This document shows positions 17,486-64,000 of a stretch of 64,000 bases of DNA, piece by piece. Origin of the DNA: Mogibacterium sp. (GTDB lineage: Bacteria; Bacillota; Clostridia; Peptostreptococcales; Anaerovoracaceae); contig JAFWGQ010000031.1 of NCBI GenBank assembly GCA_017512365.1, positions 1-64,000 on the forward strand, in the 5' to 3' direction. Position 1 is the first letter of the stretch. The number at the start of each line of letters is the position of its first letter. The notes below the pieces were generated by a model, which did no database searches, was not told where the DNA came from, and saw only the letters and a program-made list of their open reading frames with translations. The position numbers were made by a program, and so were the translations under genes.

Positions 17486-17497
17486 TTTGGTGATATT

Positions 17498-18670
17498 ATG
17501 GCAAATTGGAAGAATAATGGAAAACTGAAAGTGCTCATTATTGTGGGAACCAGACCAGAGATTATCCGCCTTGCGGCCGTCATCAAGAAGTGCCGGAAGT
17601 ATTTCGATACTATCCTTGCGCATACTGGCCAGAATTATGATTACACTCTGAACGGAGTGTTTTTCAAAGATCTGGAACTTGATGATCCAGATGTCTATTT
17701 AGATGCCGTCGGTAACGATCTTGGCGAGACAATGGGTAATATCATAGCAAAGAGTTATCAGCTTATGGTTGAACTCAAGCCGGATGCTGTGCTGGTTCTA
17801 GGTGATACGAATAGCTGCTTGTCAGTTATTGGTGCTAAACGGCTTCATATTCCGATTTTCCATATGGAAGCAGGAAATAGATGCAAAGATGAATGCCTTC
17901 CGGAAGAGACAAATCGCAGGATAGTGGACATAATCAGTGATGTCAATCTTGCTTACAGCGAACATGCCCGCCGCTATCTTGCTGACTGTGGTCTGCCAAA
18001 AGAGAGGACATATGTTACGGGTTCTCCGATGGCGGAAGTCCTCCGCATGAACCTTGACAAGATCGAAGTTTCTGATATACACGAAAAACTGTGTCTGCAA
18101 AAAGGCAAATATATACTGCTTTCGGCACATCGCGAGGAGAATATCGATACTGAAAAGAACTTCCTGTCACTCTTTACGGCAATCAATAAGATGGCAGAAA
18201 AATATGACATGCCTATTCTTTACAGCTGTCATCCGAGGTCAAGAAACCGTCTTGAACAGATGAAAAAAGAAGGTAAGTTCGAACTTGATAAACGAGTCAT
18301 ACAGCATGAGCCTCTGGGATTCCATGACTATAACTGTCTGCAGATGAATGCGTTTGCAGTAGTTTCGGATTCGGGCACACTTCCTGAGGAATCCAGTTTC
18401 TTTACATCGATAGGGAAACCATTCCCGGCAGTATGCATACGTACATCCACCGAAAGACCGGAAGCCCTCGACAAAGGCTGCTTCATCCTGTCAGGAATAG
18501 ATACTGTAGGATTGCTGCAGGCGGTGGATACAGCAGTCGATATGGTCAAGAATGGAGATAACGGCATACCAGTACTTGATTATATTGACGAAAATGTTTC
18601 AGACAAGGTAGTCAAGATAATTCAGTCGTATGTAGGGGTAGTCAATAAAATGGTGTGGCGAAAGTTTTAA
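17498..18670 (+). CDS. fnlC: UDP-N-acetyl-L-talosamine 2-epimerase (FnlC/CapG)
   Basis: 390 residues, WecB-like GT-B fold. Motifs: IIVGTRPEIIRLAAVIKK, HTGQNYDYTLNGVFF, LGDTNSCLSVIGAKR, MEAGNRCKDECLPEETNRR, SAHREENI and SDSGTLPEESS. The variants NRCKDECLPEETNRR and GTLPEESSFF are typical of the CapG/FnlC branch and differ from the WbpI-like paralogue at 7629. It performs the last step to UDP-L-FucNAc. Thirteen bases separate it from fnlA. Confidence 0.92.
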   Translation: MANWKNNGKLKVLIIVGTRPEIIRLAAVIKKCRKYFDTILAHTGQNYDYTLNGVFFKDLELDDPDVYLDAVGNDLGETMGNIIAKSYQLMVELKPDAVLVLGDTNSCLSVIGAKRLHIPIFHMEAGNRCKDECLPEETNRRIVDIISDVNLAYSEHARRYLADCGLPKERTYVTGSPMAEVLRMNLDKIEVSDIHEKLCLQKGKYILLSAHREENIDTEKNFLSLFTAINKMAEKYDMPILYSCHPRSRNRLEQMKKEGKFELDKRVIQHEPLGFHDYNCLQMNAFAVVSDSGTLPEESSFFTSIGKPFPAVCIRTSTERPEALDKGCFILSGIDTVGLLQAVDTAVDMVKNGDNGIPVLDYIDENVSDKVVKIIQSYVGVVNKMVWRKF

Positions 18671-18681
18671 GCGAAGAGTGA

Positions 18682-18702
18682 GAGAGGGTTCAAATCCCTC
18701 TC
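18682..18702 (+). other. Hairpin identical in form to a tRNA T-arm
   Basis: A 7-bp stem (18682-18688 with 18696-18702) encloses the seven-base loop TTCAAAT; the core GAGGG-TTCAAAT-CCCTC matches a tRNA T-arm consensus. No acceptor, D- or anticodon arm surrounds it, so there is no complete tRNA. It lies in the 56-base gap between fnlC and fnlB. Confidence 0.45.
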
Positions 18703-18726
18703 ACAGTATGTAAGTGAGGAAAACAC

Positions 18727-19983
18727 ATGAAAATACTGGTAACAGGAGCAAAAGGATTTGTTGGCAGGAATCTCGTAGAAAACCTTAAGAATATAAGAGA
18801 TGGTAAAAACAGAACCAGACCGGCTTTGCAGATAGATGAGATATTTGAGTATGATCTGAATTCGACTGCAGAAGAGTTAGATATGTACTGCCGTGAAGCG
18901 GATTTCGTATTCAATCTTGCAGGGGTGAACCGTCCAAAGGATCCAGAAGAGTTCAGAAAGGGGAATTTTGGATTTGCTTCAACTCTGCTTGATGCACTGG
19001 AGAAGTATAACAATAAGTGCCCGGTAATGCTGTCATCATCTGTACAGGCGACTCTTGCCGGTCGATTCGGCACTTCTGAATATGGCCTTTCAAAGAAGGC
19101 CGGTGAGGACCTGTTTTTCGAGTACGCGAAAAAGACAGGTGCTCCTGTTATGGTATACAGATTCCCTAATCTTGCAGGTAAGTGGGTGAGACCAAACTAC
19201 AACAGCGCTGTAGGGACATTCTGCAATAATATTGCGAATGATATGCCAATAACTGTTAATGATCCGTCTGTGGAATTAGAGCTGCTGTTTATTGATGATC
19301 TCGTAGAAGAGATGTTCGATGCCCTCGAAGGAAAGCCACACAGATGCAATTATCCTGCTGTAGGAGAGGTGATAGACGGTGTGGAATACGATGGGCTGAC
19401 ACCATTGTGGTGTGATGATGGTGTGTATTGCGGGGCAACTGTTACACATAAAGCAACTTTGGGATATATAGTTGAGTGTCTTGAGAAGTTCCATGATCAG
19501 CCGTCAACCTTGATGATGCCTTCGATCCCAGATGGCTCGTTTGAGAAGAAGTTATATTCGATGTATCTGTCATATCTGCCGGCGGATAAGGTCGCTTTCG
19601 ATTTGGACATGAAGTGTGATGACAGAGGATCTTTCACAGAATTGCTTAAAACTATCGATCATGGACAGTTCTCAGTAAATATCAGTAAACCGGGAATCAC
19701 TAAAGGACAGCACTGGCATAATAGCAAGTGGGAATTCTTTATCGTTGTCAGCGGACACGGATTGATCCAGGAACGCAAAATCGGTATTGACTTTGATACC
19801 GGAAAACCGTATGAACCAATCGAGTTCGAAGTCAGTGGCGACAAGATACAGGCGGTTCATATGCTGCCGGGATATACCCATAACATTATCAACTTGAGTG
19901 ATACGGAGGATCTTGTGACACTAATGTGGGCAAACGAATTATTCGATCCTGAACACCCGGATACGTTTTACGAAGAGGTATAA
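18727..19983 (+). CDS. fnlB: Bifunctional 3-epimerase/4-reductase (FnlB/CapF)
   Basis: 418 residues in two domains. Residues 1 to about 280 form an SDR reductase (VTGAKGFVGRNLVENL; a YGLSKKAGED Tyr-x3-Lys). Residues about 285-418 form a cupin epimerase with KGQHWHNSKWEFF, whose His residues bind metal. This is the CapF/FnlB arrangement that converts the FnlA product to UDP-2-acetamido-2,6-dideoxy-L-talose. It ends just before a terminator hairpin. Some FnlB cupin domains are inactive; here the HWHN metal site is kept. Confidence 0.93.
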   Translation: MKILVTGAKGFVGRNLVENLKNIRDGKNRTRPALQIDEIFEYDLNSTAEELDMYCREADFVFNLAGVNRPKDPEEFRKGNFGFASTLLDALEKYNNKCPVMLSSSVQATLAGRFGTSEYGLSKKAGEDLFFEYAKKTGAPVMVYRFPNLAGKWVRPNYNSAVGTFCNNIANDMPITVNDPSVELELLFIDDLVEEMFDALEGKPHRCNYPAVGEVIDGVEYDGLTPLWCDDGVYCGATVTHKATLGYIVECLEKFHDQPSTLMMPSIPDGSFEKKLYSMYLSYLPADKVAFDLDMKCDDRGSFTELLKTIDHGQFSVNISKPGITKGQHWHNSKWEFFIVVSGHGLIQERKIGIDFDTGKPYEPIEFEVSGDKIQAVHMLPGYTHNIINLSDTEDLVTLMWANELFDPEHPDTFYEEV

Positions 19984-31993: not shown

Positions 31994-33598
31994 TTGAAAA
32001 TACTTGCTGTTATTCCTGCCCGGGCAGGATCTAGAGGCATACCGAATAAGAATATAAGAATAATCGGGGAGCATCCGCTCATCTATTATTCTATCCGTAA
32101 TGCCATAAAATCATCTCTGATTACAGATATCATAGTATCTACGGACTCAACGGAAGTCGGAATCATAGCGCAGCAGATGGGAGTTATGGTCCACTGGCGG
32201 GATGCTTTGCTCTGCAAAGATGAGATCACACTTGACGCAGTCATAGCTGATGCTATACCAGGGGGTGTGAAGTGGGATTATATCGTCACCATGCAGCCGA
32301 CATCACCTACGCTTCGCGTGGAGACCCTGGATGCTGCTGTCAAATATACCATCGATAATGATCTTGACACCGTTATTTCGGCAATCAATTCTCCTCACCT
32401 TTCATGGGGGGAGGAGAGGGACGGAAGAAAAGTACCCAATTATACCGAACGCCTGAATCGGCAGTATCTCCCTCCGTGTTATTTGGAGACGGGAGCATTT
32501 GTTATCTCTAAATGTTCGGTGGTTACTCCGAAAACCAGAATAGGTGAGAAAGTAGAAATATTTGAGGTTCCCGAGGGAGAATCGCAGGATGTTGATACAT
32601 TTGTTGATCTTAGGGCTGCGGCATTTATGCTGGATAGACAGAAAGTCGGGATATATGTGAATGGCAACAATAAACGAGGAACCGGTCATATATACAGGGC
32701 TCTTGAGATTGCAGATGAGTTCTTTGTTAAACCGGACATTTTCTTTGATATAAATCAGACGGATGCAGGTGTGTTTGGAGATACGAAGCACAGTTTGATT
32801 CCGGTCAACGGGCTGGCCGAGCTGTATCAGAGATGTAATGATGGGCAGTATACTATTTTTATAAATGACATATTGACCACATCGATCGACTACATGATAG
32901 GTCTCAGAACTGTCATGCCGGATGTCAGAATCATAAATTTTGAAGACGATGGAGAAGGAGCTGCTAAAGCTGATCTCGTGATCAATGCTCTTTTTCAGGA
33001 AGCGGAATTGCCTCAGATGAGATCCGGCGAGAAGTATTATATTTGCGGTAAAACATTTATGTTCTATGAACCGATCGTAATCAGAGAACATGTCAAACGT
33101 GTCCTTATAACCTTTGGCGGCGCTGATCCGCAAAATTACACAGATAGGATGCTTCATATTATCAGCAAACCGGAGTATACAGACTATGAGTTTGTAGTTG
33201 TGCTTGGGCGGGCTAAAGCAAATGTTGAAGAGCTCATGAAGTACAACAAGTATGAAAACATTGAAGTCCTTTATAATGTTTCAAATATGCCTGAACTGAT
33301 GTCAGGCTGCGACATTGCCATAACATCGAGAGGAAGGACAGGCTTTGAACTTGCTCTGCTGGGCATTCCGACAATTGCAATGTCGCAGAACAAAAGAGAA
33401 GAAAAGCATGGCTTTGTAAGCAATGAAAATGGATTTACATACATAGGCCTTGATCCGACTGATGAAATCATTGAATCAAATCTTCAGATGTATCTGAAGA
33501 TGAGCAAAGCAAGCCGGAAACGTTTCCAGGATATGCTTCTCAGCCATGATTTGAGAGGCGGTCGCAAGAGGGTCATGAATCTGATCAACAGCCTTTGA
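31994..33598 (+). CDS. CMP-nonulosonate synthetase fused to a PseG-like UDP-sugar hydrolase
   Basis: 534 residues in two enzymes. Residues 1 to about 215 form a NeuA/PseF/LegF cytidylyltransferase (AVIPARAGSRGIPNKNIR, STDSTEVGIIAQ, TMQPTSPTLR). Residues about 217-534 form a PseG-like GT-B hydrolase with KRGTGHIYR, where H232 is the catalytic-His candidate, NFEDDGEG, LITFGGADPQN and GRTGFELALLGIP. PseG removes UDP before the NeuB-type condensation and the cytidylyltransferase acts after it, so the fusion joins two non-adjacent steps. Start TTG 31994 has GGAGG seven bases upstream. PseB, PseC and PseH partners are not in the window. Confidence 0.85.
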   Translation: MKILAVIPARAGSRGIPNKNIRIIGEHPLIYYSIRNAIKSSLITDIIVSTDSTEVGIIAQQMGVMVHWRDALLCKDEITLDAVIADAIPGGVKWDYIVTMQPTSPTLRVETLDAAVKYTIDNDLDTVISAINSPHLSWGEERDGRKVPNYTERLNRQYLPPCYLETGAFVISKCSVVTPKTRIGEKVEIFEVPEGESQDVDTFVDLRAAAFMLDRQKVGIYVNGNNKRGTGHIYRALEIADEFFVKPDIFFDINQTDAGVFGDTKHSLIPVNGLAELYQRCNDGQYTIFINDILTTSIDYMIGLRTVMPDVRIINFEDDGEGAAKADLVINALFQEAELPQMRSGEKYYICGKTFMFYEPIVIREHVKRVLITFGGADPQNYTDRMLHIISKPEYTDYEFVVVLGRAKANVEELMKYNKYENIEVLYNVSNMPELMSGCDIAITSRGRTGFELALLGIPTIAMSQNKREEKHGFVSNENGFTYIGLDPTDEIIESNLQMYLKMSKASRKRFQDMLLSHDLRGGRKRVMNLINSL

Positions 33599-51302: not shown

Positions 51303-52877
51303 ATGTACGACAGACGAAGCGATGACCATCCGACAATACGCGGAATGATGCTGCAAAAAACCGCAGCGGGATTTATAGCGGTCGTGATGACGATGATATT
51401 GCTCATATCGTCGGTCGCTTCATATGCCGAAGATGATCACACGGAGCCCGCAGCACCGGCCGCCATAGAGCTCAGAGTCATGTATAAATCGGGAAGAGCA
51501 CTCACTCTTGAGTGGACCGGGCCGAAGTATTTCGCGGACGCGGCTTCCTGTTTTGTCTACAGGAACGGGAGCGAAGAGGGTACTGAGGTCTCACTCAAAA
51601 ATGATGAAGAATCCGACGATGGAGGCGAGCTGCTGAGGTATACGTATACCGATTTGGAGTACAATACCCTGTACACATTCAGAGCCGCGTATTTTGACGA
51701 AAACGGAAATGAGATAAAAAGCTCGGATGTGATCTCCGCGATGTCGGCGGTCGCGCCTCCGCAAAAAAGGATGCTTGGCAGTTTTACTGTCAGAAAACCG
51801 CCGAGACTTCTTAAAAAGGGCGCTGTATTCAACCTCAGAAAATATGCCAAAGAGCCGCATAACGGCTATGCCATAGTACAGGGCAGCTGCATAGACAACA
51901 GAGGCGAGTATTCCTACTACTGTCTCGTGGACAATGGAAACTACGGAAAGCTGGTCAAGGTACGCATGAGTGACAATATCTGCGCAGGGGTATCGCGCAC
52001 ATACCGCTTCGCACACGGGAACGGCATGTGCTTCGACTCAAAACGCAATAAGGTCGTCGTGGCTTCATACGATAACGGCAGGCGTACCCTGACGTTTGTC
52101 GATCCCGACAACCTCAATAACATTTATCAGAAGAATGTCACCTTCCCGAGCAGTCTCAGAAACAGAGTAGAAGGGAATGCGACAGGGATAACGGCACTGG
52201 CCTACAACGCCAAATACGACTGCTATCTCGCGATGCAGAGGCGAGACCGCAACATAATCATCTATGACGCGGAGACACTGAAAGCAAAGGCTGCGGCGCT
52301 CACCGTTTTTGAAAGCAGCTATACCGGCTGCTTCCAGTCTGTGGATGCTGATGACACATATGTATATTTCCTTCTGAGCCCGTACGGAAGCGGCCAGCTG
52401 CGCAACATACTTGTTGCTTTTGACTGGCATGCCGAGAACTACGAAGAACTCCTGAACGGCAATTCTGAAGAGGACGTATGGCTGTGCGGTCCCGGCAACG
52501 GGAGGTGCTCCGCTGTTATCAGGATCACCGGCGCTGCTGAGATAGAGAGTCTTTTCCATACTGATGCAGGAGGGGGGAAGGGACATTTTTATCTGACGAA
52601 TTATGACACCGATCCGAAGTACACCAGCAAGAAGGTCAAATGGAAAAAGGTAAAGAAAAAGGTAAAAGTAAAGGTCAAATGGAAAAAGGTAAAGAAGAAG
52701 GTAAAGTGGAAAAAGGTAAAGACCAAAAAAGGAAAAATAAAATGGAAGTATAAGTATAAGAAAGTCTGGAAGTACAAATACAAGTATAAGACAAAGAAAG
52801 TCTGGAAATACAGGAAAGTAAAGGTGTTCAGCTATTACAACAGGGACAATTATGTCATGGATCTGGGCGTCTTCTAG
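51303..52877 (+). CDS. Secreted beta-propeller-like protein with a Lys/Trp/Tyr-rich tail
   Basis: 524 residues. A signal peptide (TAAGFIAVVMTMILLISSVASYA) comes first, then a fibronectin-III-like domain (about 55-150: LTLEWTGPKYF, YTYTDLEYNTLYTFRAAYF). Residues about 160-440 form a beta-rich domain with strand-loop repeats (NKVVVASYDNGRRTLTFVDPDN, YLAMQRRDRNIIIYD). Residues about 443-507 are almost only Lys, Val, Trp and Tyr in repeats such as KVKWKKVKKK and KKVWKYKYKYK. The tail is a good candidate for non-covalent binding to anionic wall polymers. No sortase motif is present. Function otherwise unknown. Confidence 0.7.
   Translation: MYDRRSDDHPTIRGMMLQKTAAGFIAVVMTMILLISSVASYAEDDHTEPAAPAAIELRVMYKSGRALTLEWTGPKYFADAASCFVYRNGSEEGTEVSLKNDEESDDGGELLRYTYTDLEYNTLYTFRAAYFDENGNEIKSSDVISAMSAVAPPQKRMLGSFTVRKPPRLLKKGAVFNLRKYAKEPHNGYAIVQGSCIDNRGEYSYYCLVDNGNYGKLVKVRMSDNICAGVSRTYRFAHGNGMCFDSKRNKVVVASYDNGRRTLTFVDPDNLNNIYQKNVTFPSSLRNRVEGNATGITALAYNAKYDCYLAMQRRDRNIIIYDAETLKAKAAALTVFESSYTGCFQSVDADDTYVYFLLSPYGSGQLRNILVAFDWHAENYEELLNGNSEEDVWLCGPGNGRCSAVIRITGAAEIESLFHTDAGGGKGHFYLTNYDTDPKYTSKKVKWKKVKKKVKVKVKWKKVKKKVKWKKVKTKKGKIKWKYKYKKVWKYKYKYKTKKVWKYRKVKVFSYYNRDNYVMDLGVF
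52632..52820 (+). repeat. Tandem coding repeats of the Lys/Trp tail
   Basis: A 26-base block at 52632-52657 recurs without a mismatch at 52671-52696, a period of 39 bases or 13 codons. Shorter copies of GGAAAAAGGTAAAG continue to about 52720, and AAAGTCTGGAA/GTACAA-type units follow. The frame is kept throughout. Slipped-strand changes in length are expected here. Confidence 0.85.
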
Positions 52878-52912: not shown

Positions 52913-54238
52913 ATGAGCCCCAAAAAAGTGATCACATACGGAACATTCGACCTGTTTCATCAGGGCCATTACAATATACTCAAACGCGCCAGGGAGTACG
53001 GCGATTATCTCATCGTCGGCGTTACCGGCGAGAATTATGATGTGGGACGCGGCAAACTGTCGGTACACGATTCCCTTGCGGACAGGATAGAGAATGTCAA
53101 AAAAACAGGCCTTGCAGATGAGATAATCGTGGAGGAGTATCTCGGGCAGAAGATAAGCGATATCGTCAGATACGGAGTCGACACCTTTGTCATAGGCGAT
53201 GACTGGAAGGGAAAATTCGATCATCTGGACAAGTACTGCGACATGGTATATCTGGAGAGGACTGCGGGCATTTCGAGCACCAAGATACGGAAAGAAACGC
53301 TCGATGTCTACAGGATAGGGATAATCGCGGATGATCTGGATGACAACACCATCGTCTCCGAGTCAAAACTGATAAACGGCTTCAGGGTCACTTCCGTATA
53401 CGCCGAAGACGAAGAGCTGAGAGAGGCCTTCAGGGAACGCTATGACATACCCGAATCCTCTGATTCGTGCGGACAGCTCTTTGAGCAGGCAGACATCGTG
53501 TATATCAGATGCTCGCTGAAGAACAGAAGCAGATACATCAGAAAAGCGCTTGAAGCAGGGAAGCATGTGATCTGCGATCCTCCGTTCACCATCAGTTCTG
53601 CTGAGCAGGATGAACTCCAGAAGATGGCAAAGGACAGAAACTGCATACTTATGGATAATGTCAAGATGGTCCATATACATGTGTTCAACCAGCTCCTGTG
53701 GATGACGCAGGGAGGACTGATAGGAGATATCCTGAGCTTCAACGCGTCCATCTCGAGAGAAGACAGGACAAAGGCGGATCTGTTCTACGATCTGCTGGCT
53801 CTGGCCCTGTGCCCGATGATCAAGATAATGGGCTGCGATTACAACAGCGTGGATATCCAGACATCTGAGGAGAACAATATAATAGAATTTGCGTCGCTCG
53901 ATTTCAGGTATGACAGCGGAAGAGCGGTCATCAACGTAGGAAACAGGATAAGGACGAAAAGCCGGATAGAGATCGTAGGCACAAAGGGAACCATAAGGAT
54001 GGACAACAGATGGTGGAAGGGCAGCTACTTTGAGCTCGACAACCCGGATGCGGTCGATCTTGAGATCTACAACACAAATTATCAGGGCAACGGATTCAAG
54101 TATCTGCTGAAGGCGATCTCCACAATGCTTGAAAACAACAGGACTGAATCGATGGGACTTTTTTCCGGAGAATCGAGGGAAATAGTAAAGATCGCCGAAA
54201 TGACAGAGAAATCACGGACAACAGGCAAGGGGTGTTAG
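52913..54238 (+). CDS. Glycerol-3-phosphate-type cytidylyltransferase fused to a degenerate Gfo/Idh-like domain
   Basis: 441 residues. Residues 1-130 form a TagD-like cytidylyltransferase with TYGTFDLFHQGHYNILKRA (HxGH at H16-H19) and ISSTKIR at 120-126, both intact; it makes a CDP-alcohol. Residues about 132-441 have the order of an Gfo/Idh/MocA oxidoreductase. The Rossmann glycine loop is replaced (RIGIIADDLDDNTI), the EKP motif reads CDPPF, and the active-site segment (FYDLLALALCPM) lacks the usual His. So the second half is probably not a dehydrogenase. It ends directly at the licD start. Confidence 0.8.
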   Translation: MSPKKVITYGTFDLFHQGHYNILKRAREYGDYLIVGVTGENYDVGRGKLSVHDSLADRIENVKKTGLADEIIVEEYLGQKISDIVRYGVDTFVIGDDWKGKFDHLDKYCDMVYLERTAGISSTKIRKETLDVYRIGIIADDLDDNTIVSESKLINGFRVTSVYAEDEELREAFRERYDIPESSDSCGQLFEQADIVYIRCSLKNRSRYIRKALEAGKHVICDPPFTISSAEQDELQKMAKDRNCILMDNVKMVHIHVFNQLLWMTQGGLIGDILSFNASISREDRTKADLFYDLLALALCPMIKIMGCDYNSVDIQTSEENNIIEFASLDFRYDSGRAVINVGNRIRTKSRIEIVGTKGTIRMDNRWWKGSYFELDNPDAVDLEIYNTNYQGNGFKYLLKAISTMLENNRTESMGLFSGESREIVKIAEMTEKSRTTGKGC

Positions 54239-55849
54239 ATGACAGATACACAAAAGGAACTTCTCAGACTGTACGAAGAGATCACTGTAATATGTGATAA
54301 GTACGACATCGTCTATTATCTTGCGGGAGGGACCCTGATAGGAGCGCTGCGGCACAAGGGCTTCATCCCGTGGGATGACGATCTGGACATTATGATGTCG
54401 AGAGATAACTGGCTGAGATTCATAGAGGCTTATAAAAAGGAGAAGCCTCAGAACAGGGTCCTGGAATGCCAGGAGCTGAACAGAAACTATAATAATGTCT
54501 TCGGAAGGTATATAGACACTGAAACTACCGCGATACATAAGAATGAGCTGGTAGGAGACTGCGGCACGGGATATCTCATAGATATCATTCCGCTCGATCC
54601 GGTGCCGGATGAGGATACGTTCAGAAGATATACGGAGGACATGCTTCTTTATTCGGACCTGATCAACGAGACCGGTCTGTTCAGCTACAGATACGGGATC
54701 AACAGGGAAAGGTTCCATGAAGCTCTGAAAAGGACAGAGACAGAAGGGAAAGATGCTGTCCTGTCAGAACTCGAAGACAGGATGTTCTCTTACGATGAAG
54801 ACAAATGCGATTACTGCGTCCTCCGCTGGGGCGGCGTGCCTTTTATGTTTGAGAAGGACCTGTACGGTCATTCCAGATGGGGAGAGTTCGAGGGAATAAA
54901 AAGCAGGATACCTGACAGGGCGAGCGACTATCTTGTCAGGCATTTCGGAGATGAATGGACCACCATACCGCCTCATGATGAGCAGATAGAACATGATGCG
55001 ATATTCAGTCTGGATATCGATTACAGGACGTTCAAAGAGGATTACATGCCGCTCGTTGATGCCGATGCTGTCAGAAAAAAGTGGCTTGAACGAAAGAAGC
55101 TGTATTTCAGCAGCATGGAAAGCCGGAGGAAGCTGGCTGAAATAAAAGTCAGGAGTACAGCCGAACTCAGAAGGCTCGAGATAAACCGGATACTGGATAA
55201 AGAAGGGGCAAACATCCCTTCCCTTCTCAGCAACGGAGATTACAAGGCGCTCAGCGACATCTTCGAGGACTACTTCAGGGCCCAGTTCGACAGGGACCTT
55301 ATCGGCAGAGAAGATTACGGAGGGATGCAGAGATTCGTCTCTCCGGTGCTCATAGATATCCCTGACGATGTGCTGCATGCGGCGGCTATCACTCTTATCA
55401 ACACGAACAGAGTCTCAAAGGCCCACAGGCTCCTGGAGATAAGAAAACAGGTGAGGGGAGAGCTCACCCCGGAGCTTGAGGGTGCGGAAAGAAAGATCGC
55501 TCAGTTCAGAAGGATAATCTCGGACTACGACGCCGGCCTGATAAAGCAGGCAGAGACAGAAGCGGAAGAGATGTATGCGGACAATCCTTCGATGATCAGC
55601 CTCGAGATGTTCCTCTGCCGTGTATATCTCGAGACCGGAAAAGCGGACAAGGCGATCAGACTGATCGAAAAGTGCATATCCGAATATCCGAAAGAAGGCT
55701 ATTTCAAAAAATATAAAGGAGATTATTATCTGAATGAAAAAGCCGATGTCGGGACGGCAAAGAAGCTGTATGCCGAAGCACAGAAGACGAGCGATAACGG
55801 CATGGTATTACTGGAGATAAAGGAAACACTGGAAAGAATAAATGGGTAA
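54239..55849 (+). CDS. LicD-family phosphotransferase with a TPR-like C-terminal half
   Basis: 536 residues. The LicD core is complete: YYLAGGTLIGALRHKGFIPWDDDLDIMM (GGT at 30-32, PWDDDLD at 44-50), then FGRYIDTETTAI and YLIDIIPLD. LicD proteins transfer a phospho-alcohol from a CDP donor to a glycan. The donor may be made by the fused cytidylyltransferase, whose stop touches this start. From about residue 360 helical repeats appear (NTNRVSKAHRLLEIRKQ, MFLCRVYLETGKADKAIRL), like TPR units, which could bind the acceptor or the paralogue encoded next. Confidence 0.88.
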   Translation: MTDTQKELLRLYEEITVICDKYDIVYYLAGGTLIGALRHKGFIPWDDDLDIMMSRDNWLRFIEAYKKEKPQNRVLECQELNRNYNNVFGRYIDTETTAIHKNELVGDCGTGYLIDIIPLDPVPDEDTFRRYTEDMLLYSDLINETGLFSYRYGINRERFHEALKRTETEGKDAVLSELEDRMFSYDEDKCDYCVLRWGGVPFMFEKDLYGHSRWGEFEGIKSRIPDRASDYLVRHFGDEWTTIPPHDEQIEHDAIFSLDIDYRTFKEDYMPLVDADAVRKKWLERKKLYFSSMESRRKLAEIKVRSTAELRRLEINRILDKEGANIPSLLSNGDYKALSDIFEDYFRAQFDRDLIGREDYGGMQRFVSPVLIDIPDDVLHAAAITLINTNRVSKAHRLLEIRKQVRGELTPELEGAERKIAQFRRIISDYDAGLIKQAETEAEEMYADNPSMISLEMFLCRVYLETGKADKAIRLIEKCISEYPKEGYFKKYKGDYYLNEKADVGTAKKLYAEAQKTSDNGMVLLEIKETLERING

Positions 55850-57092
55850 CAAGTACAGAAGCAAGAGCAAAGCGCAGGCAGCATCCGAACTGCTTGCCGA
55901 GGCAGCGCAGATCTGCGAAGCCAACGGTATCGAATACTTCCTTGCACCTACTCTGGTCAAAAGGGCTGTCGACGGTCTTGACTATGACATGTTTTTTCTT
56001 CCGCCGTCGGTATTCATGACTGTGGATAATGTTGTCAGATTCATTGAAACAGTCGAAAAGAGCGGGCGTGAGGGGAGAAGCCTTGATTACCTCGGCAACA
56101 ACAGCGAGTATGTCGGCTTCAATGTGTCTTATGTCAATACAGACACAACCTATATCGATATAGCGAGAGGGCTGGATTTCTCGAAATACGGTATCAGCGT
56201 AGCCATACACGTCCTGCGCGATGACATAAAGAACAGGATCCCGGCCTTCGTTGAGACAGGAGTTGATGAGAACTCAGCTCTGGTGGACATATCGGGCAAG
56301 GGCAGCTGGAAGAAAAAGGTCGTGGAAAAAGGGGTAGCCTCGGCAAAGACTGTCATAGGAAAAAACTTCAACAGAAAGCTGTTTGATTACTACGTAAAGC
56401 AGTTCAGCAGCGCCCCCGGATCGGAACGGGTATTCGTCAAGACATTCAAATCAAGACGGCGCTACTTTGACAGAGATATCTTCAGGGATAAAACGACGAT
56501 CGACTTCAGCGGCAGATCATATACGGTGCCGAAGGATATCGACGCGTATCTGGAAGGCTATTACGGGACGAATGCAAAAAACACGGAAATAAAGGAATTC
56601 CGTATCAGCAGCGCGCTGATCTCAACGGTGATACCTTATCAGGAATACCTTGAAAGCATGAAAGAAGCAGGGATCCCGATCGAAGGCCTGTTTGAACAGA
56701 ACAACGAGATCCGCGAAAGCATAGCGGCGAACCGCGACGTGATATATGCTGTCAATACAGTGAATGACACGGCGCACATGAGCGAGGACCGCATGCGTCT
56801 GTATAAGGACCTCCACCCGAGGATGGATGAGATACGCAGGCTGCACGCGGAAGGGGACTACGAAAAGCTGACGGAGATATTCACGGAGTACAACGATCTG
56901 GCCCGGTATTACGTGAACCGGGATCTGACCCTGTGCCCGGATGAGGAGCTGTTCGATATACTCTGCGATATCATGGAGCGCAGAGGCGCGACGGGCAGGG
57001 TGGCAAAAATGAGGAAGAACCTTGCGGAGCATCACAAAAGACCTCTGATCGGAAGGAGCGGTCAGCAGGGACAGTACGGAGACAGTAAATGA
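55842..57092 (+). CDS. Degenerate LicD-like protein
   Basis: 416 residues. It starts with an 8-base overlap on licD. AAQICEANGIEYFLAPTLVKRAVDGLDYDMFFL lines up with the LicD core, but GGT is lost (APT) and PWDDDID is reduced to GLDYDM (46-50). DTTYIDIARGLDF stands in the place of the second acidic motif. The C-terminal third (MRLYKDLHPRMDEIRRLHAEGDYEKLTEIF) resembles the LicD partner's helical region. It is probably a non-catalytic subunit or an enzyme with an altered site. I know no characterised relative. Confidence 0.65.
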   Translation: MGNKYRSKSKAQAASELLAEAAQICEANGIEYFLAPTLVKRAVDGLDYDMFFLPPSVFMTVDNVVRFIETVEKSGREGRSLDYLGNNSEYVGFNVSYVNTDTTYIDIARGLDFSKYGISVAIHVLRDDIKNRIPAFVETGVDENSALVDISGKGSWKKKVVEKGVASAKTVIGKNFNRKLFDYYVKQFSSAPGSERVFVKTFKSRRRYFDRDIFRDKTTIDFSGRSYTVPKDIDAYLEGYYGTNAKNTEIKEFRISSALISTVIPYQEYLESMKEAGIPIEGLFEQNNEIRESIAANRDVIYAVNTVNDTAHMSEDRMRLYKDLHPRMDEIRRLHAEGDYEKLTEIFTEYNDLARYYVNRDLTLCPDEELFDILCDIMERRGATGRVAKMRKNLAEHHKRPLIGRSGQQGQYGDSK

Positions 57093-58828
57093 AATCAAGC
57101 GACTATATAATTGACTATCTGGTAAAGAAAGGCGTCGATCACATATTCGGCTTCCAGGGCACGATGATCGCGCATTTTGTCGATTCCGTCTGGAAGAACA
57201 GCGGACTGACGAACCACAGCTGCTACAACGAGCAGGGAGCCGGCTTCGCTGCCGTGGGCTATGCGAAGGCGAGCGGGAGGACCGCTGTTGCCTATTCCAC
57301 CAGCGGACCGGGAGCTGCCAATCTTGTATCGGCGATAGCGGACGCGTATTATGACAGCGCGCCGGTCGTGTTCTTCACCGGACAGCTCAACACGTATGAA
57401 TACTTCGATATAGACGGCCTCAGGCAGAACGGCTTTCAGGAAATGGACGTCATATCCATGGTAAAGGGCGTAACGAAATACTGCGTGCAGATCACGGACG
57501 TAAACGATCTGAGGTACTGCCTCGAAAAGGCGTTCTATCTCGCGGAGCACGGAAGGCCGGGGCCTGTCGTGATCGACCTGCCTATGGACATGCAGAGACA
57601 GGAGATCGATCCGGACAGGATGAGATCCTTCGAAGAGCCCGAAGAGCCGGATTACAGCGAAAAGGCCGCCGCAGCCGCAAAGGATATCCTGAAAAAGCTG
57701 AACAGCGCGGAAAGGCCTGTTCTCATGGTCGGTAACGGCGTAGAGTACGGCTCGGATACCCACAGAAAGGTTCTGCAGATCGCCTCGAAGCTGAGGCTCC
57801 CGGTGATCACGAGCATGCTCGCCAGGGATCTGATGCCTTACGAACACGAGCTGAATCTCGGACATATAGGCGGAGGGTACGGACACCGCTATGCGAACGT
57901 CATAGCGAACAAAAAAGCCGACCTGATAGTTTCGCTCGGCTGCAGTCTGTGCAAGAGACAGACGACCACAAAGACCGAGAACTTCGCGACCGCCGCCGAG
58001 ATCGTGAGGGTGGAGATCGATCCGAAGGAGCTCGAGAGAAAGATCCATGACGATGACATCGGCTACTGCCTCGACTGCAGGCCGGTGATCGAAGAGCTGC
58101 TCCGTATGATAAGCGGCGGCGACAAGAGGCACGACGGGTGGCTTGAGGTCTGTCAGGAGATAAAGAAAAAGCTGACTGAGTTTGATGACAGCTGCGAGGA
58201 AAGAGGAGCGAACCGCCTGATCGATGAGCTGAGCAAGCAGCTCGATGAGAACGCGGTGATATGCTGCGACGTGGGACAGCATCAGGTCTGGACGTCGCAG
58301 TCGTTCAGGATAAAAGAAGGACAGCAGCTCCTGTTCTCGGGCGGGCACGGAGCGATGGGCTTCGCTCTGCCTGCGGCGATAGGCGCGTATTATGCGACGG
58401 GGAACAAGGCTGTTGCCGTGTGCGGAGACGGAGCCTTCCAGATGAACATACAGGAGCTCCAGTGGGTGTTCCGCGAGAAGATCCCTGTGACGATGATAGT
58501 GATGAACAACGACTCGCTGGGCCTGATCAGGCAGCAGCAGGATGACATGCTCGACGGGCTGTATGCGGGATCTCTGGCGGAAGGAGGCTTCAGCTCTCCG
58601 GATTTCTGCAGGATAGCCGAAGCGTACGGGATAGAGGCCGTCAGGGTCGGGGATGCCGGCGATTTGGAGAAATGCGGGAAATACATGAATTACGACAGGC
58701 CGGTGCTCATCGAGGTGATCGTCGACAGGTTCCTGGGCGCTTATCCGAAGACCCATTTCGGAGAGGAGATGCATAACCAGAGACCGTACATGCCGGAAGA
58801 GCTGATGGCGGATATCATGGAGCTGTAG
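57089..58828 (+). CDS. Thiamine-diphosphate enzyme, acetolactate-synthase-like
   Basis: 579 residues with the PYR, central and PP domains of the acetohydroxyacid synthase family. Catalytic Glu48 is in CYNEQGAGFAAVGYAKASG; STSGPGAANLVSAIADAYYDS is conserved; the ThDP/Mg site is GDGAFQMNIQELQ (about 445) to MNND (about 472). It joins a two-carbon unit, usually from pyruvate, to an acceptor. Placed between LicD and SDR genes it is unlikely to serve branched-chain amino acids; a sugar-branching role like YerE or a non-standard alcohol is possible. Coupled to the gene before it by ATGA. Confidence 0.85.
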   Translation: MKSSDYIIDYLVKKGVDHIFGFQGTMIAHFVDSVWKNSGLTNHSCYNEQGAGFAAVGYAKASGRTAVAYSTSGPGAANLVSAIADAYYDSAPVVFFTGQLNTYEYFDIDGLRQNGFQEMDVISMVKGVTKYCVQITDVNDLRYCLEKAFYLAEHGRPGPVVIDLPMDMQRQEIDPDRMRSFEEPEEPDYSEKAAAAAKDILKKLNSAERPVLMVGNGVEYGSDTHRKVLQIASKLRLPVITSMLARDLMPYEHELNLGHIGGGYGHRYANVIANKKADLIVSLGCSLCKRQTTTKTENFATAAEIVRVEIDPKELERKIHDDDIGYCLDCRPVIEELLRMISGGDKRHDGWLEVCQEIKKKLTEFDDSCEERGANRLIDELSKQLDENAVICCDVGQHQVWTSQSFRIKEGQQLLFSGGHGAMGFALPAAIGAYYATGNKAVAVCGDGAFQMNIQELQWVFREKIPVTMIVMNNDSLGLIRQQQDDMLDGLYAGSLAEGGFSSPDFCRIAEAYGIEAVRVGDAGDLEKCGKYMNYDRPVLIEVIVDRFLGAYPKTHFGEEMHNQRPYMPEELMADIMEL

Positions 58829-58844
58829 AAACTGCAGGTGGAAA

Positions 58845-59585
58845 ATGGACAGAGTAACAGTTGTGACGGGCGGCACCGCGGGCATAGGCAGGGCCATAGT
58901 AAAAAAGATCATTTCGGAGTCGGACAATGGCGGCGACCTCGTATTTGCCGTCTACGGACACAATGACGAGCTTGCGGAGCAGCTCAGGAACGAACTGCCT
59001 GAAGCGGACCGAGGGAAGCTTGTCCTGATCAAGGCCGATCTGTCGGACTACGGCAGCACGGGCGTGATAAAAAGCGCGGTATCCGAAAGGGCGGACCATG
59101 TCGACTGGCTCGTCCTCAATACAGGGGTCGGCACTTATGAGAAGTTCGAAAACTATACGCCCGAATTATGGGACCGCATCATGAGGACCAACGCCGGGGT
59201 CCCTGTGTTCATCGTAAAGGAGCTTGAGGACATGATCGCCGATGAGGGAGCGATACTGTTCATGGGATCGCACTCCGGACAGGCGACATATTCCTCGTCG
59301 CTTGCATACAGCGTTTCAAAGGCTGCGGCCATGTTCGCGGCAAGGTCGATGGTAAAGCTCTTTGATGACAGGGGGATCAGGATAAATGCCGTGGCTCCGG
59401 GCTTTATCGAGACGAGATGGCAGGACAGCAGGTCCGAGGAAAGCTATGAGAGGATAAATAAAAAGATCGCCCTGCACAGGTTCGGGCTGCCGGAGGAGGT
59501 GGCGGATCTGTGCTATCATCTGCTGACGAACGGATATGTGAACGGAAGCGTTTATGACATACACGGAGGATATGACTATTTCTGA
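58845..59585 (+). CDS. Short-chain dehydrogenase/reductase (FabG-like)
   Basis: 246 residues. VVTGGTAGIGRAIVKK binds NAD(P); VLNTGVG replaces the common NNAG, SHSGQATYSSSLAYSVSKAA holds Ser-Tyr-x3-Lys, and INAVAPGFIETRW and NGSVYDIHGGYDYF complete the fold. Seventeen bases after the ThDP gene, so it probably reduces the keto product of that enzyme. Its last ten bases overlap tail-to-tail with the minus-strand GT2. Confidence 0.88.
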   Translation: MDRVTVVTGGTAGIGRAIVKKIISESDNGGDLVFAVYGHNDELAEQLRNELPEADRGKLVLIKADLSDYGSTGVIKSAVSERADHVDWLVLNTGVGTYEKFENYTPELWDRIMRTNAGVPVFIVKELEDMIADEGAILFMGSHSGQATYSSSLAYSVSKAAAMFAARSMVKLFDDRGIRINAVAPGFIETRWQDSRSEESYERINKKIALHRFGLPEEVADLCYHLLTNGYVNGSVYDIHGGYDYF

Positions 59586-61063
59586 TAACTGCGAAGCTTA
59601 CGCCTGAGCCTGCGTGAAAAAGACGCGGCCTTTGACTGGCGGGTGATGCAAAGGATATGGCCGCTGCGGTACGCCGTGCGGCCTTTTTCATTCAGCTCGC
59701 CGCTCTTTCTGTCAAGTTCGGTAGAGGTCATGTACTCAGGAGCAGTGATGAACTCCCTTCCGGAGAACGATACGGTAAAATACAGTTCGTTCCCGGCGCT
59801 GTAGTCCACGGCTTTTCTCAGAGAATATGTCAGGTTCGACTTAAGCACGCCTTCAAGATAAGTCTTTGCGTTCAGATCGGAAGGTGCGGCTGCGATCTCT
59901 CCGGAAACGCCGTTCAGACAGAAGCGCATGCAGAAACGATCATCGTCAAAAGGATAGTTGATCTGCCCGTCTGCTTCAAAGGCGTCATCATCCATGCGCA
60001 GAGAATCTATCCTGATCAGAGGCTGCCTTGTCAGATCAAAGACAGGATGGTCCTCATACCTGATGATACCCGCATCGTCAGCGCTGATCCTGTCCGATAC
60101 ATCTCCGCTGTGCTTCAGACTGAGCGCGTAGAGCTGAAGGGCAAGAGCGATCCTCTTCTGCCCGAGTATGATATCGTCGTCGATATCCTCAAGAAGCTTT
60201 ACAAGCAGATCGAAATATTCACGGCGGGGCTCTTCATCCAGCCCGGTCTCCGCGAGAGGTATCTTGAGACGCCATCTCAGATCGTACATCACGCAGTACT
60301 GCAGATATCTGAGCACGTGCCCGAACATATCGCGCGACCTGTCGAAGAGGTACTCGTATACACTGCGACATGTCGGGACATAGTAATCAGGATCGCTCAC
60401 GGACGTCTGTATCGCGGAATCGCCGGCAGGTCGCCTTCTGTACCAGTAGACGGGATCTCTGAGGAGCATCATCTCAGGCCTTTCCAGCAGTATCTCGTTT
60501 ATGAAGCGGAAGTCTTCGGAATACTTGAGCCCTTCGGTAAAGCTGTGGCCTTTGACGGCGTCGGCCGTGATGAACACGGACGATGAGCTGAGCTGCGGAA
60601 AGCTGTAGTCTTCTGTTATATCGATGACGCGGTCTTCTTCATACTTGTAATTGAGCTGATGTTCGCCTGTCTCACCGTCAAAAAAGACCATCCTGCAGCT
60701 GAATACGCTGACGCCGGGATGAGCCTTATATGCCTCATACGCGGTCTCAAAGGCCTCCGCGCTCCATTTGTCATCGCCGTCAAGAAAGGTGATGAGCTCG
60801 CCTTCGGCAAGCCCGATCCCCCTGTTCCTCGCAGCGGATACGCCCGAGTTCGGCTGCTCTGCATATATGACATTTTCCGGATGCGCGGCGGCGAAGCGCC
60901 GGCAGACCGCTGCCGAATCATCCGGGGAGCCGTCGTTCACGAGTATGACCTGGATATCGCTGAAGCCGATCGTCTGCGAGGCGATGCTCGCAAGGCATTC
61001 ATCAAGATAGTCCCGGACATTGTATACGGGTATTATTACCGAGATCTTATAGGTTTTTTCCAT
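59576..61063 (-). CDS. GT2 glycosyltransferase, possibly on a leaderless mRNA
   Basis: 495 residues. ISVIIPVYNVRDYLDECLASI, VILVNDGSPDDSA, GVSAARNRGIGLAEGELITFLDGDDKW (DxD as DGD) and LKYSEDFRFINEIL mark a GT2. About 230 residues of alpha/beta sequence follow, ending in a basic helix (RRLRRKLRSYQK). The tail resembles that of the GT2 at 49539. The frame is open back to 61492, but MEKTYK at 61063 is the natural N-terminus. A strong promoter ends only six bases before this ATG, so the transcript may start at the start codon. Confidence 0.85.
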   Translation of the reverse strand: MEKTYKISVIIPVYNVRDYLDECLASIASQTIGFSDIQVILVNDGSPDDSAAVCRRFAAAHPENVIYAEQPNSGVSAARNRGIGLAEGELITFLDGDDKWSAEAFETAYEAYKAHPGVSVFSCRMVFFDGETGEHQLNYKYEEDRVIDITEDYSFPQLSSSSVFITADAVKGHSFTEGLKYSEDFRFINEILLERPEMMLLRDPVYWYRRRPAGDSAIQTSVSDPDYYVPTCRSVYEYLFDRSRDMFGHVLRYLQYCVMYDLRWRLKIPLAETGLDEEPRREYFDLLVKLLEDIDDDIILGQKRIALALQLYALSLKHSGDVSDRISADDAGIIRYEDHPVFDLTRQPLIRIDSLRMDDDAFEADGQINYPFDDDRFCMRFCLNGVSGEIAAAPSDLNAKTYLEGVLKSNLTYSLRKAVDYSAGNELYFTVSFSGREFITAPEYMTSTELDRKSGELNEKGRTAYRSGHILCITRQSKAASFSRRLRRKLRSYQK

Positions 61064-61195: not shown

Positions 61196-62737
61196 ATGAC
61201 AGCAGACAGCTTGGATATAAAAACACTGACGATAGACGGCGGCCGTCTTGTGATACGGGGCACAGAGCGTTCGGGCATGGCCCCGGAGGATATCGGCATC
61301 TTTGCCTGCGATGAGACCGGCAGCGAGACAAAGGCTGAGACAGCGCCGTACAGAAGCGGTGCAGTATGCTTCAGCCTCGATATCCCCGTCCATGACGGCC
61401 AGGTGATATCCTTCCGGGCAGATCCGGGAGAGGCCGGAGGCCCGGCGCTGTCGTTTGACCGCAGCACGGGGCTCAGGAACAGGATAAAGCACGACTACAC
61501 CGTGATAAACGGATATATAGTCGCCAGAAAAGGCAGAAAGCTGGTCATACTCAGGGATACGCCGCTAAACAGGGCAAAGGCGGAGGCGTATGTCGCGTAC
61601 GAGATGCTCCGCAAGGACAAGGCGGCGTGGCCCGGCAAAAGGCTCCGGGAGCTCAGGCTCAGGAGGATGATCGAGTCGGCTCCCCCTGAAGACCGGGTCG
61701 CGTTCATCACGCCGAGGAGCACGGACTGCCTCACGGGCAGCATGGAAAAAGTGTATTCCGCCCTGGATCTGCCGAAGACATATCTGGCGGTCCCGGACAT
61801 GGGGTACGACAGCGCGGGGGCGGAAAAAGCGCTCAGGCTCATCGCCTCCAGCAGGATAGTCGTGACCGATGATTACCTCACCCCTCTGAGGCTGTATGAC
61901 AAGAAGCCCGGCCAGAGGATCGTGCAGCTGTGGCACGCGACCGGAGCCGGCAAGAAATTCGGCCGGGACGGGACGAACATGTTCCCGGAGGTCGACGCGC
62001 TCACCCACAAGGATTATGACGCGGTCACTGTCAGCGCGGAAGGCATACGCGGATTCTACGCCCACGCCCTCAGCCTCCCGGTCAGCAGGATAAAGGCGAC
62101 CGGAGTGGCGAGGACGGACGACTATTTCGATCCCGGATACGCGGAGGCTGCGCGCAGGATGGTCTTTGAAAAGCATCCGGAACTTGAAGGACGGAGGCTG
62201 ATCATGTACGCGCCGACGTTCCGCGATGTTCCGGGAGAGGGACGCAGGAGCTTCAGGCCGGACATCGACTTCGGCGAACTGTCGGAAGCTCTGCCTGAGG
62301 ACTGCGTGTTCGTCATATGCCCGCATCCTGTGATGACAGAGAGGATACTGGACGGCGAATACGACAACATCCTCGAGCTGAGGGACATCAGCACGAAGGA
62401 CATGATGTTCGCCTCGGATGTGCTCGTAACGGACTACTCTTCGGTGTTCTTCGAGTATTCTCTGCTCGACAGGCCGATGGCGTTCTACTGCTATGATTTC
62501 GATACATATGAGCGGGACTTTTACATGGATTTTGAGAATGAGATCCCGGGCCCGCTGATGAAGACCAGAGAGGAATTCATGGATTACATCCGCAGGGGCG
62601 AGTTCATCAGGACTGAGAGCTATGCCGGCTTCAGGGACAAATACCTCGGTGCGTGTGATGGACACAGCACGGAAAGAACAGTTAAAATGATAAAAGAGAT
62701 GTTCGACGGAACATTCAGCGACCAGGAGGCAAAATGA
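61196..62737 (+). CDS. TagF/TarL-like CDP-alcohol polyol-phosphate transferase
   Basis: 513 residues. The N-terminal about 110 residues are beta-rich. The GT-B catalytic part carries IVQLWHATGAGKKFG (H247), MYAPTFRD, FVICPHPVM (H377) and VTDYSSVFFEYSLLDRPMAFY, all landmarks of the CDP-glycerol/CDP-ribitol glycerophosphotransferase family. It adds or polymerises polyol phosphate on a lipid-linked teichoic acid. TarI and TarJ follow with overlaps, so ribitol phosphate (TarL/TarK-like) is the more likely unit. AAGG precedes ATG 61196. Confidence 0.9.
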   Translation: MTADSLDIKTLTIDGGRLVIRGTERSGMAPEDIGIFACDETGSETKAETAPYRSGAVCFSLDIPVHDGQVISFRADPGEAGGPALSFDRSTGLRNRIKHDYTVINGYIVARKGRKLVILRDTPLNRAKAEAYVAYEMLRKDKAAWPGKRLRELRLRRMIESAPPEDRVAFITPRSTDCLTGSMEKVYSALDLPKTYLAVPDMGYDSAGAEKALRLIASSRIVVTDDYLTPLRLYDKKPGQRIVQLWHATGAGKKFGRDGTNMFPEVDALTHKDYDAVTVSAEGIRGFYAHALSLPVSRIKATGVARTDDYFDPGYAEAARRMVFEKHPELEGRRLIMYAPTFRDVPGEGRRSFRPDIDFGELSEALPEDCVFVICPHPVMTERILDGEYDNILELRDISTKDMMFASDVLVTDYSSVFFEYSLLDRPMAFYCYDFDTYERDFYMDFENEIPGPLMKTREEFMDYIRRGEFIRTESYAGFRDKYLGACDGHSTERTVKMIKEMFDGTFSDQEAK

Positions 62738-63441
62738 TATACGCAGCAGTTCTTGCCGGCGGCACGGGAAACCGCATGGGCAACGTCGACAAACCAAAAC
62801 AGTTCCTGCATATCGGAAAGAAGCCGATCATCATCCATACAGTCGAAAAGCTGATCATCAATGAGCGCTTCGACAAGGTGATCGTGCTGTGCCCCGAGCA
62901 GTGGATGACATACACGAAAGATATACTCAGCAAGTATCTTCCGGGAAACGATGCTGTGGTGGTCACGCCCGGGGGCGACACGCGCAACGGCACCATACTG
63001 AATGCCGTCAATTATATCGAAGAGAATTACGGCCTTGACGATGAGACCGTTCTGGTCACACATGACGCGGTAAGACCTTTCGTCACGCAGAGGATAATCG
63101 ACGAGAATATCGACAGCGCGGTCAGCGGCACAGCCTGCGATACGGTCGTCCCTGCCGCGGACACGATAGTCGAGAGCATCGACGGAAAGTTTATCAGCAA
63201 TATCCCGAACAGGGCTTATTACAATCAGGGACAGACGCCGCAGAGCTTCAGGGCAAAGCGCTTCAGAGAACTGTACGAAAGCCTGACGGATGAGGAGAGA
63301 TCGATCCTCACGGACGCCTGCAAGGTGTTCGTGGTCAAGGGAGAGCCGGTAGCCATCATAAGAGGAGAGACCTTCAACATCAAGGTGACGTATCCTTACG
63401 ATCTGCAGCTGGCCGAGACTCTGCTTGGAGGAGACAGGTAG
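62734..63441 (+). CDS. tarI: Ribitol-5-phosphate cytidylyltransferase (TarI)
   Basis: 235 residues, IspD-like fold: AVLAGGTGNRMGNVDKPKQFLHIG (nucleotide loop with KPKQF), VTPGGDTRNGTILNAV, THDAVRPFVT and NQGQTPQSFRA. The last motif and the neighbour TarJ separate it from the isoprenoid enzyme IspD. It makes CDP-ribitol from D-ribitol 5-phosphate and CTP. Starts in the ATGA overlap with the polymerase gene; AGGAGG lies just ahead. Confidence 0.92.
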   Translation: MIYAAVLAGGTGNRMGNVDKPKQFLHIGKKPIIIHTVEKLIINERFDKVIVLCPEQWMTYTKDILSKYLPGNDAVVVTPGGDTRNGTILNAVNYIEENYGLDDETVLVTHDAVRPFVTQRIIDENIDSAVSGTACDTVVPAADTIVESIDGKFISNIPNRAYYNQGQTPQSFRAKRFRELYESLTDEERSILTDACKVFVVKGEPVAIIRGETFNIKVTYPYDLQLAETLLGGDR

Positions 63442-64000
63442 TGCTTAACACTGTATACAGACTTGTAGAGCCAAGAAGAATAGAGGCGGAGTTCTGCGAC
63501 ATCGATGTGAACGGCGACGACATCATCGTGCGGCCGACGCATCTGGCCATCTGCAATGCCGACCAGAGGTACTTCCAGGGCATAAGGCCGCCTGAAGTGC
63601 TCAGACAAAAGCTTCCGATGGCGCTTATACACGAGGGCATCGGCAGGGTCGTTCACGACCCGAAAAAGGAGTTCCCTGCCGGGACCTGCGTCGTCATGGT
63701 GCCTAATACCCCGGTCGAAGATGATCCGGTGGTCGCGGAGAACTACAGGAGAAGCAGCAGATTCCGCTCATCCGGCTATGACGGGTTCATGCAGGACGTA
63801 GTGTCCATGAGAAGGGACAGGGTCATCGCGCTTCCTGAAGGGATAGACAGGAACGTGGCGGCCTTTACCGAGCTCGTTTCGGTATCGCAGCACACCATCG
63901 ACAGGTTCATGGCAAAGGCTCATGAGCGAAGAGATGTCATCGGAGTGTGGGGGGACGGAAACGTCGCTTTCATTACGTCGCTTCTGCTCAAAAAGCGGCT
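63441..64000 (+). CDS. tarJ: Ribulose-5-phosphate reductase (TarJ), 5' part
   Basis: About 186 codons before the window ends. It is zinc alcohol-dehydrogenase-like: VRPTHLAICNADQRYFQG (catalytic Cys region), MALIHEGIGRVV and VVMVPNTP are TarJ-type, and VIGVWGDGNVAFITSLLL begins the NADPH-binding Rossmann domain. It reduces D-ribulose 5-phosphate to D-ribitol 5-phosphate for TarI. Start GTG 63441 shares its first base with the tarI stop and has GGAGGAG seven to eight bases upstream. Confidence 0.92.
   Translation, partial: MLNTVYRLVEPRRIEAEFCDIDVNGDDIIVRPTHLAICNADQRYFQGIRPPEVLRQKLPMALIHEGIGRVVHDPKKEFPAGTCVVMVPNTPVEDDPVVAENYRRSSRFRSSGYDGFMQDVVSMRRDRVIALPEGIDRNVAAFTELVSVSQHTIDRFMAKAHERRDVIGVWGDGNVAFITSLLLKKR

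Follow-up and report, generated by a model that had tools for sequence, protein, structure and literature searches.

We ask why an enzyme that depends on thiamine diphosphate (ThDP) and resembles acetolactate synthase is encoded among cytidylyltransferase and LicD genes in a Mogibacterium sp. (assembly GCA_017512365.1, contig JAFWGQ010000031.1, positions 1-64,000; this whole stretch of 64,000 nucleotides is called the window, and the genome that holds it the own genome, G000). The open reading frame (ORF) table and the family matches placed five genes on the plus strand, in agreement with the families given in an earlier note on this DNA: a TagD-like cytidylyltransferase fused to a second domain (FUS, 52913-54238), an intact LicD phosphotransferase (LICD1, 54239-55849), a degenerate LicD (LICD2, 55842-57092), the ThDP carboligase (THDP, 57089-58828) and a short-chain dehydrogenase/reductase (SDR, 58845-59585). 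FUS and LICD1 abut, the next two junctions overlap by 8 and 4 bases, respectively, and a 16-base gap precedes SDR; the genes are indeed tightly packed, and to call them mostly overlapping, as the note did, is a little strong with two of four junctions. We propose, at a probability of roughly 40%, that this module makes a branched small alcohol linked to cytidine diphosphate (CDP), which then serves to decorate a surface glycan. The parts are known and their combination is new; no published description of this module was found by title or start of abstract in the open-licence literature, which is weak evidence of absence.

Conservation of the five genes

With the THDP protein as sole query at a threshold of E 1e-115, matches were obtained in eight of 349 genomes of the same bacterial family. 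Seven of them (the own genome, G045, G053, G056, G171, G202 and G331) carry module genes around THDP, and the eighth, G314, holds a CDP-hexose cluster. When genomes were drawn evenly from the phylum, THDP matches were found in three of 398, and the module is rare because only the own genome among these three carries it, the other two loci holding RfbF, RfbG and RfbH. A wider scan compared a seven-row THDP alignment with one genome per species (84,980 species) and kept the best 80 matches, among which Blautia wexlerae MSK.20.46 (L129) and B. schinkii MSK.6.26 (L140) showed the order FUS-LicD1-LicD2-ThDP-SDR, and metagenome-assembled genomes (MAGs) showed LicD1-LicD2-ThDP-FUS-SDR (L131), LicD-FUS-SDR-ThDP (L132), FUS-ThDP-SDR (L133) or ThDP alone (L130). 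The search for the same order that the earlier note had suggested was thus successful: the exact order is present in the window, L063, L064, both Blautia species and G045, where the fusion is split across two contigs. One gene is inserted in L065, L066 and L131 are rearranged, and L067 is without a nearby fusion. A standalone TagD-type gene occupies the usual place of the fusion in L066 (13930-14316, G053), where the fusion itself comes after SDR.

Leaving the window itself aside, twelve loci with a THDP of this clade were compared with 73 control loci, whose ThDP genes are not of the clade and which span 7 kb or more; shorter loci (including the IlvB loci of the genus) and one locus with a broken ThDP frame (L139) were set aside. 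The C-terminal domain of the fusion was found at ten of the twelve, SDR at eleven and LicD1 at nine, and none of them at any control locus (E 1e-15); even at E 1e-5 no fusion, SDR or LicD1 match appeared in the other ThDP loci. The co-occurrence of the five genes exceeds chance, and the set read as one module in the earlier note, which joins a CDP-activating enzyme and a ThDP carboligase to SDR and LicD, is conserved in several bacteria that are only distant relatives.

Families and motifs of the module proteins

THDP contains the TPP_enzyme N, M and C domains, and its best model is acetolactate synthase TIGR00118 (433.6 bits against a cut-off of 538.35). It does not qualify as an IlvB, being under this cut-off in a genome in which IlvC (ketol-acid reductoisomerase) was looked for and not found, with a positive control in 14 of 14 cases and an assembly estimated to be 92.9% complete with 6.9% contamination. 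THDP is the only acetolactate-synthase-like protein found in the own genome, and the strain may need external branched-chain amino acids. A ThDP match is present in 37 of the 47 genomes of the genus (own genome included), many of which have two.

The phylogenetic tree was built from 61 of 119 rows, namely those of at least 35.8% identity, all rows labelled RfbG/H and every third of the rest; YerE itself is absent from it. The 13 module rows form one clade (support 100/99), and a fork supported at 95/86 holds this clade, 5ahk and six of the nine RfbG/H-labelled rows, including L068, L125 and L126, whose loci carry RfbF, RfbG and RfbH; another labelled locus, L138, has RfbG (29%) and RfbH (44%) matches. 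A branch supported at 100/100 parts the module and YerE-like side from acetohydroxyacid synthase (AHAS) I (6lpi) and the IlvB proteins of the genus. The signature residues, counted in groups that omit five rows, follow the same division. Q113 is found in 13/13 module, 8/8 YerE-like and 0/35 IlvB-like rows, Q291 in 11/13, 8/8 and 0/35, respectively, and Asp289, present in all 35 IlvB-like rows, is absent from the other two groups. An insertion at E104 is common to the module and the eight YerE-like rows and absent in the IlvB-like ones, QGTM at 23-26 (13/13) is typical of the module, and Asn47 before the catalytic Glu48 occurs in 12/13 module rows as compared to 1/8 YerE-like and 0/35 IlvB-like rows. 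The position of plant AHAS Trp574 was dropped as a diagnostic; it is Gln in 10/13 module rows but Gln in AHAS I too. Tree and residues together suggest that THDP is YerE-like rather than a valine-pathway enzyme, and the likeness to YerE drawn in the earlier note is borne out to this extent. In the Lachnospiraceae MAG locus L134 (1-3219), two ThDP genes stand in tandem, the second being sister to the module clade, and the fetched stretch has no fusion or SDR match.

YerE draws activated acetaldehyde from pyruvate and attaches it to CDP-3,6-dideoxy-4-keto-glucose, as described in an excerpt of PMC12247030, and is termed acetolactate-synthase-type in an excerpt of PMC10338323; the excerpted text of PMC4753412 gives the later reduction step of yersiniose as uncharacterised as of 2016. 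The module shares with yersiniose A synthesis, as outlined in these excerpts (PMC12247030, PMC4753412), a ThDP carboligase from the same side of the tree, CDP-linked chemistry and a reduction after the acetyl branch. It differs in that no match to RfbF, RfbG or RfbH lies alongside THDP at any of the 12 module loci, in that activation by cytidine triphosphate (CTP) would fall to a TagD-like enzyme, and in that LicD apparently takes the place of a glycosyltransferase in moving the product. CDP-hexose branching was rejected for the module itself because no RfbG-type CDP-glucose 4,6-dehydratase above cut-off was found in the seven module genomes, which gave only TIGR02622 matches below cut-off; G314 was positive, and its ThDP relative, outside the module, has RfbF, RfbG and RfbH as neighbours, all over their cut-offs.

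The N-terminal half of FUS (about residues 1-131) belongs to the TagD-type nucleotidyltransferases (CTP_transf_like, 59.3 bits, cut-off 21). Like the CDP-glycerol-forming TagD/TarD enzymes it has the HxGH and RTxx[IV]SS motifs, which are present in 31/31 fusions with Ser in place of the next Thr in four, and its top sequence match is 1coz. Unlike them, it falls below the TagD equivalog cut-off (TIGR01518, 111.1 bits against 165.4), carries a fused domain and has an altered acceptor region: among the residues that do not vary across 19 standalone TagD-type proteins, R63 is replaced by G and W74 is lost in 36/36 fusions, and others are changed too. Another TagD-type gene lies elsewhere in the own genome. 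CpgD was dropped as a TagD-like precedent, its source paper denying, in the part seen, homology to TagD. The second half, which the earlier note had left unnamed, is a Gfo/Idh/MocA domain (GFO_IDH_MocA, about residues 131-441). The fold is retained, the fold comparison (VIA list) spanning residues 130-441 and barely testing the N-terminal half, and the protein does not belong with the active oxidoreductases. The catalytic lysine of the EKP motif is missing in the window fusion and 27 others of 31, and the window fusion is without the usual glycine motif, part of which is kept in some of those 27. These motif and identity counts omit L067, L098, L111, L123 and L124, which have no usable fusion ORF, and partial fusions of 340 residues or fewer. 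The fusions of L114, L116 and L122 keep both the glycine motif and the EKP lysine and perhaps represent an ancestral active form.

LICD1 is a LicD protein (134.9 bits, cut-off 22.6) with a C-terminal TPR region, and its PWDDDxDI motif is kept in 7/7 copies. LICD2 scores just above the same cut-off (24.2 bits), and the DDD metal motif is found in 0/7 aligned module copies; its model has FKRP in the first 13 rows of structure matches, a weak match (best E 3e-3, TM about 0.3) from which an FKRP-like fold is predicted. The pair thus resembles the LicD/FKRP type of transfer from CDP donors in the domain and DDD motif of LICD1, and differs from it in combining an active and a degenerate member with a TPR region. 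In L103, both LicDs lie in one protein of 960 residues (LicD1 match at 1-535, LicD2 match at 564-950, E 7e-26), in which Pfam detects only the first LicD, and in the proteins of L100-L102 (1107-1109 residues) a second region resembling LicD is matched less strongly, the LicD2 match of L100 falling to 3e-4; all four proteins carry a single WDDD motif, which lies in the first half. Because they are fused in relatives, LICD1 and its dead partner probably act together, and a docking or regulatory part is the likeliest role of LICD2. SDR is a short-chain reductase (adh_short, 117.9 bits, cut-off 26.6) in whose translation the TGGTxGIG and YSVSK motifs can be read.

Sister modules and the order of steps

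The fusion is also found with other builders. Beside 36 fusions we counted a HisC-like aminotransferase nine times, an AepZ/PhnW-like aminotransferase ten times, ThDP and SDR ten times and none of these three seven times, the labels being our own, taken from gene-order tables and most family matches in the sister modules lying below curated cut-offs; an ornithine-cyclodeaminase-like protein stands beside some fusions as well. The L022 locus (8162-18807, G031) joins the fusion to a lactate dehydrogenase, an AMP ligase, LuxE-like and LuxC-like proteins, a GNAT protein, an SDR, LicD1 and LicD2, which suggests an acid-to-aldehyde route into the same CDP core. In L097, L104 and L128 the fusion is accompanied by LicD genes, an AepZ-like aminotransferase and an ornithine-cyclodeaminase-like protein, and here the platform may branch towards amino alcohols. 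The ThDP label changes five times on the fusion tree, at least four of them by well-supported branches, as compared to a shuffled mean of 8.5, and the ThDP protein forms one clade. Conservation of the genes, their family placement, the loss of motifs and this swapping of cassettes are established. The AepZ/PhnW-like enzymes (below cut-off) recall the CTP activation of aminoethylphosphonate in the Pnt pathways, as given in an excerpt of PMC6697681; on the other hand, no phosphoenolpyruvate (PEP) mutase was found in the own genome, for which reason a phosphonate route was rejected, and the window module is without an aminotransferase.

The two halves of the fusion behave differently across builder types. 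In 280 pairs of different type the N-terminal halves share 70.2% identity, as against 67-76% for pairs of one type, and no position separates the ThDP from the aminotransferase types at 80/20; the C-terminal halves share 30.2% between and 30-36% within types. One common CDP product is thereby favoured, with the C-terminal half and the neighbours being module-specific: a near-constant cytidylyltransferase half argues for one common acceptor and for chemistry on the CDP-linked intermediate. The earlier note had the alcohol built first, then activated with CDP and transferred by LicD; its gene set stands, and this constancy led us to change the order of steps.

We infer the substrates, products, order of steps and target polymer as follows. 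The TagD-like half of FUS would join CTP to a small phosphorylated acceptor of three-carbon type, giving a CDP-linked alcohol or ketone common to the sister modules. By analogy with YerE, THDP would decarboxylate pyruvate or another 2-keto acid and add the acyl unit to the carbonyl of this intermediate, SDR would reduce the new keto group, and LICD1, partnered by the catalytically inactive LICD2, would move the phospho-alcohol onto the polymer; the dead-looking Gfo domain may hold the CDP intermediate instead of oxidising it. HisC and AepZ, to which the two aminotransferase kinds are related, use substrates whose carbonyl lies close to a phosphate or phosphonate, and a core like dihydroxyacetone phosphate is for this reason favoured at low certainty. 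With equally low certainty, the product might be CDP-2-C-acetyl- or CDP-2-C-(1-hydroxyethyl)-glycerol built on CDP-dihydroxyacetone.

A broader and more doubtful reading takes the sister modules as one plug-in system. The cytidylyltransferase fused to a dead oxidoreductase would make a common small CDP carbonyl, swappable cassettes would convert this into various products, be they one of two unrelated aminotransferase kinds, an ornithine-cyclodeaminase-like protein, LuxC/LuxE-like reductases or a ThDP carboligase with SDR, and the active and dead LicD pair would deliver these products; in the window, a C-C bond would be formed on the CDP carrier to give a branched phospho-alcohol. To our knowledge, such a compound is known from no cell wall. 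If our proposal is right, the making of C-C bonds on nucleotide carriers, as in branched sugars, would also build small wall decorations of Firmicutes, including those of Blautia wexlerae, in which direct testing is possible. It would account for the company of so many unrelated enzymes in which a single cytidylyltransferase family is found, give a use to the dead oxidoreductase domain and the dead LicD partner, hint at a family of unseen phospho-alcohol antigens and offer a source of new stereoselective carboligases.

Several findings weigh against our proposal. The module holds no acceptor kinase. L130, a contig of 11.9 kb, is without any partner, L132 has a single LicD and L133 none, in G056 there is a distant fusion about 24 kb away, and G053 carries a TagD-type gene besides the fusion. 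The term YerE-like is a label by neighbourhood in a tree that does not contain YerE: an RfbG match exists in four of the nine rows so labelled, the other five (L136, L137, L141, L159 and L175) show no more than an RfbH-like match of 25-27%, L175 is placed with IlvB in the tree, and the YerE-like side includes four rows on long branches. The conserved N-terminal half could also reflect a tolerant enzyme instead of one fixed acceptor. Finally, a Bacteroidales MAG contig (L139, 6931-10668) encodes consecutively a LicD (163.9 bits), an IspD-type cytidylyltransferase (79.2), an SDR (87.0) and a ThDP gene broken into two frames, possibly an independent assembly of the same functions with another cytidylyltransferase, unless it is coincidence.

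This quartet supports the idea of a module and, to a degree, the strongest rival, in which THDP and SDR first build the alcohol in phosphorylated form, with pyruvate and triose or glycolaldehyde phosphate as possible starting compounds, the fusion then adds CDP and LicD transfers the product. In isoprenoid synthesis DXS, DXR and IspD act in such a succession, and by this parallel with the methylerythritol phosphate (MEP) pathway the IspD-type enzyme of L139 favours the rival a little. The same gene set and conservation would fit it, and the R63 and W74 changes allow a non-glycerol acceptor. It predicts, however, that the cytidylyltransferases of ThDP and aminotransferase modules differ, against which stand the even N-half identities and the lack of any separating position, and the best-placed ThDP kin lie in clusters making a CDP-linked ketone; we consider it possible and somewhat doubtful. 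A further rival, in which the fusion supplies only CDP-glycerol, LicD adds phosphoglycerol, and THDP and SDR act on another sugar nucleotide from the locus, can draw on a UDP-sugar dehydrogenase, an epimerase, a UDP-galactopyranose mutase and a CTP_transf_3 protein encoded upstream in the window. We regard it as unlikely, since L131, L132 and L133 keep FUS, ThDP and SDR as a group despite a changed LicD order or no LicD, the module genomes have no CDP-hexose dehydratase above cut-off and the acceptor region is unlike that of TagD. That THDP is an ordinary acetolactate synthase of valine, leucine, isoleucine or acetoin metabolism, here by chance, as its best family model and the 111-bit match of SDR to a meso-butanediol-dehydrogenase model (below cut-off) might imply, is very improbable and was rejected, given a sole such gene without a detected IlvC, a clade that a 100/100 branch divides from IlvB and the retention of the partners at 9-11 of 12 loci.

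Surrounding genes

The locus is a surface-polymer locus, and its neighbouring genes suggest a teichoic acid as the target, which is as far as the claim of the earlier note on this point can be carried. Downstream of the module, a family-2 glycosyltransferase gene on the minus strand (59576-61063) is convergent with SDR, and its relatives come after SDR in L063, L064 and L065. It is followed on the plus strand by a CDP-glycerol-type glycerophosphotransferase assigned by family match (TarL/TarF-like, 61196-62737), a TarI-like D-ribitol-5-phosphate cytidylyltransferase (62734-63441; NF001183, 351.5 bits, cut-off 166) and a dehydrogenase-like gene, perhaps TarJ (63441-64000), cut by the window end. 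Of the separate TarI/TarJ pair in the earlier note, TarI and with it a separate CDP-ribitol route are thus confirmed, and TarJ fits and is unproven, the partial product of 186 residues giving 36.9 bits to L-idonate dehydrogenase, far below cut-off. Past the window end (L026) lie an ABC-2 permease, an ABC ATPase and a second CDP-glycerol phosphotransferase. Immediately upstream of FUS, a repeat-rich protein without family match (51303-52877, plus strand) lies outside the conserved module, and its C-terminal end consists of long WKKVKKK-type lysine/tryptophan repeats. Farther upstream, the CTP_transf_3 protein (31994-33598) has a domain of CMP-sugar synthetase type with a weak DUF354-like match behind it and represents a further nucleotide-activation gene.

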